A stretch of DNA of 51,937 bases from Acidobacteriota bacterium. GTDB lineage: Bacteria > Acidobacteriota > Terriglobia > Acidiferrales > UBA7541. The stretch is from positions 1 through 51,937 of the forward strand of contig QHYM01000102.1 in the NCBI GenBank assembly GCA_003223295.1, written 5' to 3'. A model generated the notes under the pieces. It ran no database searches, was not told where the DNA came from, and worked only from the letters and a program-made list of their open reading frames with translations. A program made the translations under genes and the position numbers. Positions 9,700-44,729 of the stretch are shown here, piece after piece. Within the stretch, counting starts at the first letter, position 1. Each line of letters opens with the position of its first letter.

Positions 9700-10137
9700 T
9701 AGAAGTCAATTGAATGGGGGAGAGTCCCATCGACAGAGCCATCCAGTGACTGTCGTAGTTATATCCAGCGCCGAGAAGGGTGACCGACTCGACGGAAGCC
9801 TGGAAGTAAAAGTCCCGATGGCGGGGAAGTTCCCGGTCAGATCCGCACAGGGGGCGAGCAACTTGACAGGCCGCAGCAGAAGCGAACCAGGAAGCCCCGT
9901 AAAACCTCACCTGCGGGAAGCGGATCGCAGGTTACTTGGGAGAGCCGAGCCTCTGTCCGCGTAGGCAAAGGCCATGTTGGGCCGCGAGACTGGAACACCG
10001 CGGACGGAACATTCTCTGAACACAGCTATGGGTTTCGGCCCAGACGATCGGCACATCAGGCGGTGGAGCAGAAATCCCGATCCTCCTGATCGGCTCCGAT
10101 CTGGGCGGCAAGATTTTTTCTGAGTCCACAAAAACGG
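9700..10137. ncRNA. Hairpin-rich noncoding stretch, possible group II intron-like relic
   Basis: No coding frame here resembles a protein. The plus strand holds dense local base pairing: GACAG/CTGTC at 9732-9754, a perfect 7-bp ACCTGCG/CGCAGGT stem at 9909-9932 with a 10-base purine-rich loop, CCGCG/CGCGG around 9980-10002, and a long three-segment stem at 10038-10106 (GCCCAG/CTGGGC, GATCGG/CCGATC, ATCAGG/CCTGAT with small internal loops). Parts of 9715-9960 recall domain I-type sequence of bacterial group II introns, but there is no reverse transcriptase frame and I could not find a domain V. It might equally be an unrelated structured RNA or a decayed repeat. Strand is uncertain. The structure is seen; the intron idea is weak inference. 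Confidence 0.35.
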
Positions 10138-41491: not shown

Positions 41492-41839
41492 ATTCTCTGC
41501 GACTTAGGGAGTATGGTAGCGGCGGACATCTCCAAAAGCCCTAAGTCACGGATCCCTCTTGCAGATGACCCAACCGTCATGGCCAAAAAGAAACTATTGG
41601 TAAGTCACCCTATCCGTGGTAGCATGGTTTTGCGTTTGTTGCTCTTGTATCGCCTTTGGGTAAGAAAGCGGTCGCAAGGTCACACTTGCGGCCATTTTTT
41701 TGCGCGGTTGACCGCTTTGCAGCCAGCCGAGCGAAGCTTGAAGACGGCCGCGGCTCTGTTGAGGGGCTCGGAACTTGAGGCATCAGATAGCTTATAGAAG
41801 TGCTCAGCCTTCCATGGCTGACAGAAACGAGTAAATGCA
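41492..41839 (+). promoter_or_regulatory. Long region upstream of cold-shock gene with hairpins
   Basis: About 350 bases between the TetR stop and the cold-shock gene. A perfect 9-bp inverted repeat is at 41501-41509/41539-41547 (GACTTAGGG / CCCTAAGTC). A terminator-like hairpin is at 41670-41701. After it about 138 bases lead to the GTG of the cold-shock gene. Long leaders are common for cold-shock mRNAs, but I could not fix the promoter. A frame from 41513 to 41797 has no recognised product. Confidence 0.5.
41670..41701 (+). terminator. Intrinsic terminator or leader attenuator upstream of cspA
   Basis: A 9-bp stem (GGTCGCAAG with CTTGCGGCC, one G-U), 6-base loop, then ATTTTTTT. It may end the tetR transcript or act as an attenuator in the cold-shock leader. 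Confidence 0.75.
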
Positions 41840-42046
41840 GTGAATAAAGAACAGGGTACCGTGAAGTGGTTCAATGCCAGCAAGGGCTTTGGGTTCATCC
41901 AGCGCCAGAGTGGCGAGGACGTTTTCGTCCATTTCTCCGCCATTGTGGCTGATGGCTACAAGACTCTCAACGATGGCCAGGCGGTTGAATTCGAAGTAAC
42001 CAAGGGTCCAAAGGGCCTGCAGGCTACGAACGTACAGCCCCTCTAA
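41840..42046 (+). CDS. cspA: Cold-shock protein (CspA family)
   Basis: A 68-residue single OB-fold protein, normal length for the family, that binds single-stranded RNA and DNA. RNP1 is KGFGFIQ and RNP2 is DVFVHFSAI; the start [15 protein letters not shown] is canonical. The start is GTG at 41840, with only a weak upstream site, which may help temperature-dependent translation. It has a long leader and ends at a very stable terminator, so it is probably monocistronic and highly expressed. Confidence 0.96.
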
Positions 42047-42071
42047 TTTCGCTTCACAAGTAACAACAATT

Positions 42072-42102
42072 GGGCGGCGCGCTTCGGTGCGCCGCCCTTT
42101 TT
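42072..42102 (+). terminator. Strong intrinsic terminator of cspA, UUCG tetraloop
   Basis: A GGGCGGCGC/GCGCCGCCC stem extended by a wobble and a C-G pair closing a UUCG tetraloop (11 bp in all), followed by TTTTT. It lies about 25 bases after the stop. Confidence 0.95.
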
Positions 42103-42171: not shown

Positions 42172-43347
42172 CTACCGCACCGCTGGCTCTGCTACTTCCG
42201 TGGCACTTTTTGCCGAGCGATCTTTCAAGAATCCGCGCGCCGCAAGCAATTCCGCATTCAACAGCGCTGCTCCCGCAGCTCCACGCACCAGATTGTGCGA
42301 GAGCAGCGTGAGCTTTACGTCATGGAGCGGACACTCCCGGATTCTACCGACCACCGCGGCCATTCCTTCTCCCGCCTCGACGTCGCGCCGCGGCTGCGGG
42401 CGGTCCTCTTCGTCCACCACAACCACCGGATGGCGAAGCGCCGTCGGCAAGGAAGCGAGCTCCTCGTCCACTTCAAACGTGCGCAGCGCTTCGCGCACTT
42501 CGTCTAGCGATGCGATCTTCTTCAAGCCCAAAGACACGCACTCGAGATGGCCATGCAGCACAGCCACGCGATTGCAGTGCGCGCTGATGCCCACTCCCGC
42601 CTCAACAAACCTCGCGCCGTCCCACTTGCCCAGCAGCTTCTGCGGCTCCGCCTCCATCTTTTCTTCTTCGCCGCTGATGAACGGCACCACGTTGCTCTGA
42701 ATATCCATGGACGCCACGCCGGGATACCCCGCCCCGGAAATAGCCTGCAGAGTAACCACGAAGATCCTTTCCAGCCCAAACGCCTCCGCCAGCGGCTTCA
42801 GCACCAGCACCAGCCCGGCCGTCGAGCAGTTGGGGTTCGTCACGATAAATCCCGTGTCATAGCCGCGGTTCTTCTGCTGCACGGGAATTGCGTCCAGATG
42901 CGAAGCGTTTACTTCCGGAATCAGCAGCGGCACGTCCGCATCCATCCGGTGATTCTTCGAATTGCTGACCACGGGATAGCCCGCGCGCGCGAAGTCTACC
43001 TCCACCGGGCCCGCAACAGACGAATCCAGCGCCGAGAAAACAAAGTCGCATTCGAGCACCGGCTCCACGCCTTTTACCACCAGGTCCCGCGCCACCTCCG
43101 GAATCGGCGTCTCCAGATGCCAGCGAACCGCTTCGGCATACGTCATTCCCGACGATCGTTCTGAAGCTGCAACTTCCGTCAGCTCAAACCACGGATGCCC
43201 CGCGAGCAGCTTGACCAGTCGTTGCCCGACAATGCCCGTCGCGCCGAGGACCCCGGCCCGCCACTTCTTTTTGACGCTCTTCACGCGCTTTTTCTGCTCG
43301 CTCGGCTCCATTTCACCATTCCTCCCATCTTGAATCTGTAAGCTCAT
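42172..43347 (-). CDS. asd: Aspartate-semialdehyde dehydrogenase (archaeal/fungal-type)
   Basis: A 391-residue enzyme reducing aspartyl phosphate to aspartate semialdehyde, precursor of lysine, threonine, methionine and diaminopimelate. The NADP motif is GVLGATGIVGQRLVKLL. The catalytic Cys is in TNPNCSTAGL and the catalytic His in ISAHCNRVAVLHGH. The lengths and motifs fit the archaeal/yeast-type subgroup rather than E. coli Asd. The start at 43347 overlaps the lysC stop as ATGA, implying coupled translation; an ATG at 43311 with GGAGG is an alternative giving a shorter protein without the SLQIQDG leader. The C-terminal ~15 residues are an odd extension. The operon is lysC-asd, preceded by the threonine leader. 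Confidence 0.93.
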   Translation of the reverse strand: MSLQIQDGRNGEMEPSEQKKRVKSVKKKWRAGVLGATGIVGQRLVKLLAGHPWFELTEVAASERSSGMTYAEAVRWHLETPIPEVARDLVVKGVEPVLECDFVFSALDSSVAGPVEVDFARAGYPVVSNSKNHRMDADVPLLIPEVNASHLDAIPVQQKNRGYDTGFIVTNPNCSTAGLVLVLKPLAEAFGLERIFVVTLQAISGAGYPGVASMDIQSNVVPFISGEEEKMEAEPQKLLGKWDGARFVEAGVGISAHCNRVAVLHGHLECVSLGLKKIASLDEVREALRTFEVDEELASLPTALRHPVVVVDEEDRPQPRRDVEAGEGMAAVVGRIRECPLHDVKLTLLSHNLVRGAAGAALLNAELLAARGFLKDRSAKSATEVAEPAVR

Positions 43348-44387
43348 GCCGCACCTTCCGGAGAAGGCGCGCCGGAAAATTCGCCCGCAGGTCCAATCCG
43401 CGTCCCGCGTGCTTGCGGATTGAAGGTATTGCGTACCCACACCACCATTTCACTTTCCGCGGCCAACGGCAGCACCTTGGGATGCAGCACCTTCGCGCCG
43501 CTCGCCGCCAGCGCACGCGCTTCGTCGTAGCTCAGCTCATGCAGCAGCCGCGCTTCCGCCGTTTCCTGAGGATTTGCCGTATAAATCCCGTCCACATCCG
43601 TCCAGATCACCAGCTCATCGGCGTCCACGACGTGCGCCACGATCGCTCCGGAGAAATCCGAACTGTTGCGCCCGAGTGTGGTAATCCGCCCGTCGGGGGT
43701 CGCTCCGATGAACCCGGTCACTACCGGCACGATTCCTTCCTTTAGTAGCGGAAGAAGAATTTTGCGGCCGCGCTGTTTGCTTTGTTCCAGCAGTGGCTGC
43801 GCGTCGCGAAACGTATCACACGTCAACACGAATTCCGATGAAGTTACGGGCACGGACCTAACGTCCAGCTTCTTCAGCGCCGCCGCGAAAAGCCGGGCGC
43901 TGAACCGCTCGCCGAAAGAAGCCAGCCGGTCAGAAAATTCCGCGGTCGCCGTGCCTTGTTCGCGGCGCACAACTTCGTGCAACAGGTCGCGTCCGAGCAA
44001 TTGCAGCTCGCCGTGCACGCGGCGATTCGTCTCTTCATCCAGCCGCAAATCCTGCAGCACTTCCAGATGCATTTCCAGGATAACTTCTGCTTCTCTCCCC
44101 GCTTGAGGCAGCTTGCCGGCCGCCAGCGCCTTCTCGATCAACAGCAGATGGTCCGTTACGCCCTTCATGGCCGAAACCACTACCGCCACCGTCGATACCG
44201 CGGTCGCCTTTCGCACCAGCCTCGCCGCGTGCAGCATGCGCTCCGCTCCCAGGAGTGAGCTCCCGCCAAACTTAAACGCTACTACTTTTGCGTGGCTCTC
44301 ACCGACCCCGCCGCGCCAAAGTGCCTCCCTTTGTCTCGCGGCAGGGTTTCGTTCCGCTGCTTCTTCCTGCACATTTTCCCGGTTCAT
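43344..44387 (-). CDS. lysC: Aspartokinase without ACT regulatory domains
   Basis: A 347-residue kinase making aspartyl phosphate, the first step of the aspartate family pathway. The ATG at 44387 has AGGAG eight bases before it. The amino-acid kinase domain is complete: VVAFKFGGSSLLG at the N-terminus, VVVSAMKGVTD, FSDRLASFGERFSARL, GFIGATPDGRITTLGRNSSD (nucleotide/aspartate region), WTDVDGIYTANP and LSYDEARALAASGAKVLHPK. The protein stops about 30 residues after this at RNTFNPQARGTRIGP and lacks the two ACT domains (about 120-150 residues) that bind lysine or threonine in most aspartokinases. Allosteric feedback is therefore unlikely. A threonine-rich leader and attenuator lie upstream. Confidence 0.93.
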   Translation of the reverse strand: MNRENVQEEAAERNPAARQREALWRGGVGESHAKVVAFKFGGSSLLGAERMLHAARLVRKATAVSTVAVVVSAMKGVTDHLLLIEKALAAGKLPQAGREAEVILEMHLEVLQDLRLDEETNRRVHGELQLLGRDLLHEVVRREQGTATAEFSDRLASFGERFSARLFAAALKKLDVRSVPVTSSEFVLTCDTFRDAQPLLEQSKQRGRKILLPLLKEGIVPVVTGFIGATPDGRITTLGRNSSDFSGAIVAHVVDADELVIWTDVDGIYTANPQETAEARLLHELSYDEARALAASGAKVLHPKVLPLAAESEMVVWVRNTFNPQARGTRIGPAGEFSGAPSPEGAA

Positions 44388-44439
44388 GACTTGCGCTCCT
44401 GGTCTCCATTCTCAAGTCCGGCTGGAGCGTCTCTGGAGG

Positions 44440-44487
44440 GGCTTAAAAGAAGAAACCCACCGCCAGGTTCGCTTCTGGCGGTGGGTT
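44440..44487 (-). terminator. Transcription attenuator hairpin in the lysC-asd leader
   Basis: Read on the minus strand, a perfect 13-bp stem (AACCCACCGCCAG with CTGGCGGTGGGTT), 8-base loop, followed by TCTTCTTTT. It lies 19 bases after the stop of the threonine-rich leader peptide and about 50 bases before lysC. The 5' arm contains CCACCGCC, which can instead pair with GGCGCGTGG in the leader coding region (44519-44527), an antiterminator of 8 bp with one bulged C. The stem and U-run are seen; the switching is inferred from the thr and trp type attenuation model. Confidence 0.82.
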
Positions 44488-44506
44488 GGAAACTTTTTCT
44501 ATCCTG

Positions 44507-44566
44507 CTAGCTGTTTCTCCACGCGCCCGAAGCGGTAATAGTCTTCGTAGTCGAGGTAGTCGACAT
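44507..44566 (-). CDS. Threonine-rich leader peptide of the lysC-asd operon
   Basis: A 19-codon ORF from the ATG at 44566 to TAG at 44507-44509 on the minus strand. The product is MSTTSTTKTITASGAWRNS: 6 of 19 residues are threonine, with one isoleucine. Its composition resembles ThrL of the E. coli thr operon. The codons ACU, ACC and ACG are all used. A CGAAG/CTTCG pair flanks the last Thr codons and could form a pause hairpin. It is followed at 19 bases by the terminator hairpin and then lysC. The ribosome-binding site is weak (GAAGCG, about 12 bases upstream). When threonyl-tRNA is scarce, ribosome stalling would free the antiterminator segment; when Thr is plentiful, translation to the stop would let the terminator form. 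This mechanism is inferred; the ORF and hairpin are seen. Confidence 0.8.
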   Translation of the reverse strand: MSTTSTTKTITASGAWRNS

Positions 44567-44729
44567 GGACTTAATTCGCTTCGTGGCGATGGACATCATT
44601 ACGTACTCAGCCTACCACGCCCCTTCCTGGAAAAAAAGCACCATTTTTCGCGGCCCCTTTACTGATAAGCGGTCCTGCCTTCAACTCGCCATTCGCATCG
44701 ATGGGGCTTGCATTCAGAATGAGTACGCT

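Follow-up and report, generated by a model that had tools for sequence, protein, structure and literature searches.

The genes lysC and asd, whose products catalyze the first two steps towards threonine, are located side by side on the minus strand of the stretch of DNA analysed here. This stretch, referred to as the window, is 51,937 nucleotides long (contig QHYM01000102.1, positions 1 to 51,937, forward strand) and comes from an Acidobacteriota bacterium (assembly GCA_003223295.1); coordinates refer to the window unless another contig is named. The likely ATG of asd overlaps the lysC stop codon by 4 nt, and the open frame of asd reaches 43440. A short threonine-rich open reading frame (ORF) with a predicted promoter element in front of it is found upstream of lysC. 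The genes and the elements of the leader ORF are:

42172..43347, minus strand: asd, aspartate-semialdehyde dehydrogenase (Pfam Semialdhyde_dh and Semialdhyde_dhC)
43344..44387, minus strand: lysC, 347-aa aspartokinase without ACT domains (Pfam AA_kinase only)
44507..44599, minus strand: leader ORF of 30 codons plus stop, MMSIATKRIKSMSTTSTTKTITASGAWRNS, with 7 Thr, conserved in frame in 30/30
44534..44560, minus strand: putative regulatory Thr codon run T14-T22, TTSTTKTIT (4-6 Thr per 8-codon window in 30/30 leaders)
44609..44614, minus strand: predicted -10 element of the extended type, TAGGCT with GTGG in front (a GTGN-TANNCT-like element occurs in relatives)

Two other parts of the window matched Rfam families. 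A match to the cspA thermoregulator (41762-42100, plus strand; 82.5 bits against a threshold of 78) lies over a cold-shock protein gene and may mostly reflect coding sequence. A group II intron D1-D4 match above threshold is located at 9712-9881 (plus strand).

The nearest named relatives of the source organism are subdivision-2 (gp2) MAGs and 'Candidatus Acidiferrum typicum', in agreement with the acidobacterial host proposed in an earlier interpretation made without database searches (the sequence-only reading). The comparison set consisted of 30 distinct genomes with a readable lysC leader, including the source genome itself (G000). The arrangement of the lysC locus is alike in all 30, with an in-frame Thr-rich ORF, a stop codon about 25 nt 5' of a hairpin, and a terminator. 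A covariance model built from the 30 leaders (R1) gave strong matches in 34 of the 36 genomes of the genus, and the two genomes missed are 63% and 77% complete. In G002 and G020 the leader is located directly 5' of asd. The sequence-only reading had suggested folding the leader region and aligning related lysC leaders. Region 44390-44600 (211 nt) proved far more stable than its shuffles (z = -4.2; 0/200 shuffles as stable), and the Thr codons and the hairpin are both present in 30/30 of the aligned leaders.

The leader ORF ends with a UAG stop codon (44509-44507, minus strand). A 19-codon ORF (44566-44507; MSTTSTTKTITASGAWRNS) had been proposed earlier; its 6 Thr codons and 1 Ile codon were counted correctly, but its start was placed too late, the conserved ATG being that at 44599. 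As a complete leader this 19-codon ORF was rejected, since conservation and promoter position favour the start at 44599. Among the 30 relatives, the leader ORFs are 30-42 codons long, all in frame, and contain 6-14 Thr each. Of the ORFs of 20-60 aa that begin with ATG in the window (235), only two, one of them the leader, reach this Thr fraction. Both ends of the peptide are conserved, with a K-R-I-like block close to the N terminus and ASG-x-x-R-N close to the C terminus, and the Thr-rich middle varies in length. The spacing between two conserved flanking RNA segments takes 10 values in the 30 leaders, every one a multiple of 3, and the spacer from the stop codon to the hairpin (measured to the stem CCACC) is 17, 22, 24, 25, 26, 27 or 28 nt. 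Inter-segment distances that are all multiples of 3, next to a stop-to-terminator spacer that is not constrained in this way, are the signature of a translated reading frame. A feature of classical attenuators, a small upstream ORF with clustered codons for the amino acid presumed to be sensed, is found in 30/30.

In 21/30 genomes, 9-10 nt separate the end of the -10 hexamer from the leader start codon. Although the hexamer has its T, A and last T in 30/30, the scan was biased towards these letters; the TG located three and two bases 5' of the hexamer (28/30 and 29/30, respectively) was not among the letters scanned for. No Shine-Dalgarno (SD)-like GGAG, AGGA or GAGG was found upstream of the leader start in any of the 30 relatives. 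Because the -10-like element lies 9-10 nt upstream, we infer that transcription starts near the AUG; the leader ORF is probably leaderless or near-leaderless, with the transcript beginning at, or a few bases before, AUG 44599. The predicted start (about 44600) is upstream of 44487, as the sequence-only reading needed it to be.

The RNA elements between the leader start and lysC are:

44577..44593, minus strand: segment 1, UCCAUCGCCACGAAGCG, a mimic of segment 3 and pairing partner of segment 2 (minimum-energy fold; 81.7% of cells paired in 30 leaders)
44519..44534, minus strand: segment 2, CGCUUCGGGCG-C-GUGG, the switch arm common to 1:2 and 2:3 (pairing counts and masking folds)
44513..44517, minus strand: GAAAC, 5' strand of the inner stem of the antiterminator (96.6% of cells paired with GUUUC, and double-sided changes in three pairs)
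44489..44493, minus strand: GUUUC, 3' strand of the inner stem of the antiterminator, paired with GAAAC
44470..44484, minus strand: segment 3, CCAC-CGCCAGAAGCG, terminator 5' arm plus loop and partner of segment 2 (covariation with segment 2 across paralogues)
44454..44487, minus strand: intrinsic terminator hairpin of 13 bp, segments 3:4 (98.2% of cells paired in 30 leaders)
44445..44453, minus strand: terminator U-rich tract TCTTCTTTT, directly 3' of the hairpin
44424..44429, minus strand: CGCUCC, possible anti-Shine-Dalgarno arm (6 or more Watson-Crick pairs to the SD arm in most relatives)
44394..44399, minus strand: GGAGCG, lysC Shine-Dalgarno, which pairs with CGCUCC

The terminator hairpin consists of the arms AACCCACCGCCAG (44487-44475) and CTGGCGGTGGGTT (44466-44454, segment 4) with a loop at 44474-44467 on the minus strand. 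The perfect 13-bp stem and the U-rich run described in the sequence-only reading were both recovered, and the gap between stop codon and hairpin is exactly 19 nt. Across 38 leaders, 97.0% of cells are paired and 4 pairs show double changes, a result reached by 0/500 shuffles; here and below, the shuffle controls for pair counts leave the relatedness of the sequences in place. As in classical attenuators, an intrinsic terminator thus lies between the leader ORF and the first structural gene, and its U-tract is present in 29/30 leaders. The most divergent Thr leader (L029:2635-2808, minus strand) has no U-tract 3' of the hairpin and carries a compensatory inner stem, GAAG:CUUC; its read-out may be different from that of the other Thr leaders.

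In the alternative structure, CGCUUCGGGCG pairs with CGCCAGAAGCG, terminator loop included, to form the antiterminator. The main 2:3 helix is formed by CGCUUCnGGCG with CGCCnGAAGCG and continues via GUGG:CCAC and GAAAC:GUUUC. The terminator loop GAAGC is invariant in 30/30 leaders because this helix uses it. In the 30 leaders, 90.1% of the 2:3 cells pair and 5 pairs show changes on both sides (0/500 shuffles), with 28-45% pairing in slid controls; in the set of 38 leaders, 16 double-change cells were counted versus 6.7 in shuffles, and 0/500 shuffles reached this count. Segment 1 (GCCACGAAGCGAA) is a near-copy of segment 3 (GCCAGAAGCGAA), so both compete for segment 2. Pairing of GGCGCGTGG (44527-44519) with the 5' arm of the hairpin had been proposed earlier; the sequence is present and is part of the antiterminator, but the helix is longer than claimed. 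This pairing was rejected as the main antiterminator, since it shows no double changes in 38 leaders, whereas CGCUUCnGGCG:CGCCnGAAGCG has them.

The effect of ribosome position was simulated by masking the ribosome footprint and folding the nascent RNA to the end of segment 3; full leaders were folded too. When a stall was placed on the first Thr codon in the run, 30/30 nascent leaders folded into 2:3 with 7 bp or more. With the ribosome at the stop codon, 2:3 was cut from about 14 to 9 bp or lost in nearly all nascent leaders, and the terminator (3:4) formed in 27/30 full leaders. The window's own nascent leader folded as 1:2 when free, as 2:3 during the Thr stall and as 1:2 with the ribosome at the stop. 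An exclusive antiterminator set by ribosome position, another feature of classical attenuators, was thus found computationally, from the covarying 2:3 and 3:4 pairings and the masking folds. Ribosome-free nascent RNA preferred 2:3 in 24/30 relatives, so default termination without translation is not general. In full-length equilibrium folds during the Thr stall, the terminator still won in 21/30, the window's own leader included; the switch therefore depends on kinetics, with 2:3 forming before segment 4, a dependence that known attenuators share.

The element is very probably a ribosome-mediated transcription attenuator that raises lysC-asd transcription when charged Thr-tRNA is scarce. Where the ORF, the codon run, the terminator and the alternative pairings can be read directly from the DNA, the transcript start, the ribosome positions and the Thr-tRNA response would follow from them in this way. 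The ribosome would load at the 5' end of the transcript, without a Shine-Dalgarno sequence, at AUG 44599. A ribosome moving freely to the stop codon (44509-44507) would cover segment 2 on its GUGGAGAAAC side, and formation of the 3:4 terminator (44487-44454) would then end transcription before lysC. A ribosome stalled in the Thr run (44560-44534) would leave segment 1 under or behind it and segment 2 free, and the free segment 2 would pair with segment 3 and the terminator loop before segment 4 is made, which would allow read-through into lysC-asd. If no ribosome is loaded, 1:2 could form, and termination would be the default in the window's own leader.

The leader might instead act mainly on translation, through a hairpin between 44429-44424 and the lysC Shine-Dalgarno sequence (44399-44394) to which leader translation or read-through would set access, the terminator being of minor importance. 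Anti-SD pairing of at least 6 Watson-Crick bp occurs in 23/30 relatives versus 2.7% in shuffles, a control that ignores relatedness. This explanation is nevertheless unlikely, as a strong terminator with a U-tract, kept in 29/30, lies between the leader and the SD, and no alternative partner freeing the SD was found. The SD hairpin could be a second, translational layer of the transcription attenuator rather than a rival to it.

The enzymes of the pathway also bear on the attenuator. Three other aspartokinases examined in the genus contain ACT domains. No convincing Thr leader with a terminator was found in 29 regions upstream of ACT-containing aspartokinases, although a few Thr-containing ORFs were present there. 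The ACT-less lysC is preceded by a Thr leader in another genus too (L305, L352). As the controlled aspartokinase lacks ACT domains, attenuation plausibly replaces end-product feedback inhibition, and the association of ACT absence with the Thr leader points to attenuation as the substitute for what is elsewhere allosteric control. The gene thrC is present in the source genome and in all close relatives compared. Against the attenuator reading, homoserine dehydrogenase, which is needed for threonine, was not found by HMM and protein comparison in the source genome and its close relatives (93-98% complete), possibly because of incomplete assemblies or the presence of an unrelated enzyme.

R1 also gave moderate matches outside lysC, and most of those inspected are more than plain terminators, since they carry an ORF with a codon run that fits the downstream gene. 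The R1 matches L133, L134, L137, L139 and L141, which lie in Asp-rich coding repeats, were discarded as GACGAC composition. The proposed shared scaffold is defined by a segment 2 (CTTCnGGCG) complementary to the terminator arm and loop (CGCCnGAAG), a terminator, and an amino-acid-rich ORF that ends just after segment 2. A second covariance model (R2) covers segment 2 to the U-tract alone; the window leader fits it with 92.4 bits, by construction, since the window is part of the model. The R2 scaffold is present in 23 of the 41 genomes of the family, with up to five copies per genome. In the phylum as a whole, 11 of 347 genomes have it, most of them members of one other family. Three further copies in the source genome carry Cys-rich leaders:

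C140:3540-3637 (L315): MQIRSRKNASLCICCRCCTCVSSGARRLSI, before a rhodanese-type sulfurtransferase gene
C80:19302-19402 (L331): ...NNCCMCCATGFSGAGGLAV, before cysD
C236:28197-28292 (L332): MMNCGQMMCCPCACNAACCMSPISGQRSFRT, before a sulfite/nitrite reductase family gene

Copies elsewhere precede genes encoding siroheme synthase (cysG), sulfate adenylyltransferase, a TauE exporter, a YeeE-type sulfur transporter and an ABC solute-binding protein. Cys-rich leaders on the scaffold are also found in sister genera (L272-L289, L295-L352) before sulfur-assimilation and transport genes, and mixed Thr/Met/Ile/Cys leaders precede asd in genus g199 (L309, L310, L312). In Terriglobales-like genomes (L322, L325, L329), genes for family 2A encapsulin shells have the scaffold and Cys-containing short ORFs in front of them. 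Outer-membrane and other genes without an obvious sulfur role follow some of the copies. Segments 2 and 3 co-change across the paralogues (UCUUCUGGCG:CGCCAGAAGA, UUCUCUGGCG:CGCCAGAGAA and CUCUCUGGCG:CGCCAGAGAG), and sequence similarity beyond the pairing favours shared descent of the Thr and Cys sets. On balance, the comparison leans towards a codon-programmable scaffold that has spread by duplication through this acidobacterial family, with Thr codons before lysC/asd and Cys codons before genes for sulfurtransferase, cysD, siroheme synthase, sulfite reductase, sulfur transport and, in Terriglobales-like genomes, family 2A encapsulin, to give amino-acid-specific regulons without a protein regulator.

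Leaders for other amino acids were also detected. An aromatic leader (YSYWFRF-like, with Tyr/Trp/Phe codons) and a terminator precede the DAHP synthase gene at the majority of 30 scanned loci of the genus (L150/L151, G000:C319:2882-3021; L152-L180); this leader is related to the scaffold and more divergent, and a similar one occurs in a distant family (L327). An Ile/Leu/Val-rich leader with a terminator before ilvD is convincing in L132/L326 (another family) and suggestive in the source genome (L205), and beyond these no such branched-chain leader before ilvD was found in the class.

The paralogues bear on what the lysC leader would sense. Thr, Ser and Ile account for 25.5%, 20.8% and 9.9% of residues in the 30 leaders, respectively, and the shares of Ser and Ile would fit a leader that senses slow translation in general, or Ile, Ser or Lys, and not Thr specifically. 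Such a response is very unlikely: Thr is the only aspartate-family amino acid with a dense codon run, Lys and Ile reach a maximum of 3 per 8-codon window in the 30 leaders, Ser is usually less dense than Thr, and the sulfur-gene paralogues have Cys runs instead, as expected were codon identity the signal. A trans-acting role of the conserved leader as small protein or regulatory RNA, with a terminator that simply ends a small RNA, recalls peTrpL of Sinorhizobium, a leader peptide reported to act in trans (PMC7298713), and would fit the highly conserved N-terminal IATKRI and C-terminal ASGAWRNS and the rnTrpL-like leaderless architecture, but it is less likely still, given that both conserved peptide blocks fall on segments 1 and 2 and match what these need for pairing, that the middle of the peptide keeps its Thr content and not its sequence, and that the codon run of paralogous leaders changes with the downstream pathway.

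The putative Thr-sensing attenuator before lysC-asd is a specific and testable case in an abundant soil phylum. An aspartokinase without an allosteric domain under such an attenuator suggests that feedback inhibition was traded for attenuation. If the Thr and Cys scaffolds are truly homologous, an attenuator has been copied and re-aimed by codon change, and cysteine-directed transcription attenuation could be tested on several genes of one genome.

The sequence-only reading knew of no such case in this kind of organism, and a literature search, thin on subscription journals, found no description of these elements. Up to 2010, leader-peptide systems had been shown only in Proteobacteria and Actinobacteria and in the Bacillus case of PMC2965389, according to which hardly any of the attenuators predicted in Acidobacteria had a function assigned. 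The comparative survey of Lopatovskaya et al. 2010 (cited in PMC4833913) may contain an earlier prediction in Acidobacteria. The Bacillus case comprises His leader attenuators before hisS*/hisZ (PMC2965389); it resembles the present one in having a leader peptide outside Proteobacteria and Actinobacteria and related leaders at two genes, and differs in belonging to Firmicutes and in using the same amino acid at both loci. In Actinobacteria, attenuators were predicted for trp, cys and branched-chain genes, and no conserved element was found before threonine operons (PMC1262725). Cys-rich mycobacterial uORFs were proposed as the first cysteine-directed attenuation (PMC4633059), although PMC1262725 lists candidates for cysteine genes. 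These actinobacterial and mycobacterial elements, as described in the parts consulted, share with the acidobacterial leaders amino-acid-rich short ORFs before biosynthesis genes and Cys-rich uORFs before sulfur genes; the mycobacterial uORFs are described there without a terminator scaffold, unlike the acidobacterial leaders, and a shared scaffold with swapped codon runs was not seen in those parts of PMC1262725 or PMC4633059. In Sinorhizobium meliloti, the trpL leader ORF is leaderless, with the transcript starting at the AUG (PMC7298713), as predicted here; trpL differs in its Trp codons, its alphaproteobacterial host, its sequence and its genes.

The leader did not match any riboswitch (lysine riboswitch) or T-box family in Rfam, and these classes were discarded. 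It also has no match to Rfam Thr_leader (RF00506) at the gathering score or at E<=10. The working layout is nevertheless the one to which the sequence-only reading had likened it, that of E. coli thrL-thrABC, with a Thr-codon leader peptide, segments 1-4 and a terminator before an aspartokinase operon. In contrast to thrL, which has Thr and Ile runs, the acidobacterial leader has mainly Thr runs, controls an ACT-less lysC and asd, is probably leaderless and uses the terminator loop in the antiterminator. The acidobacterial Thr leader is thus a probable variant of classical attenuation and the entry point to a probable family of codon-swapped attenuators.
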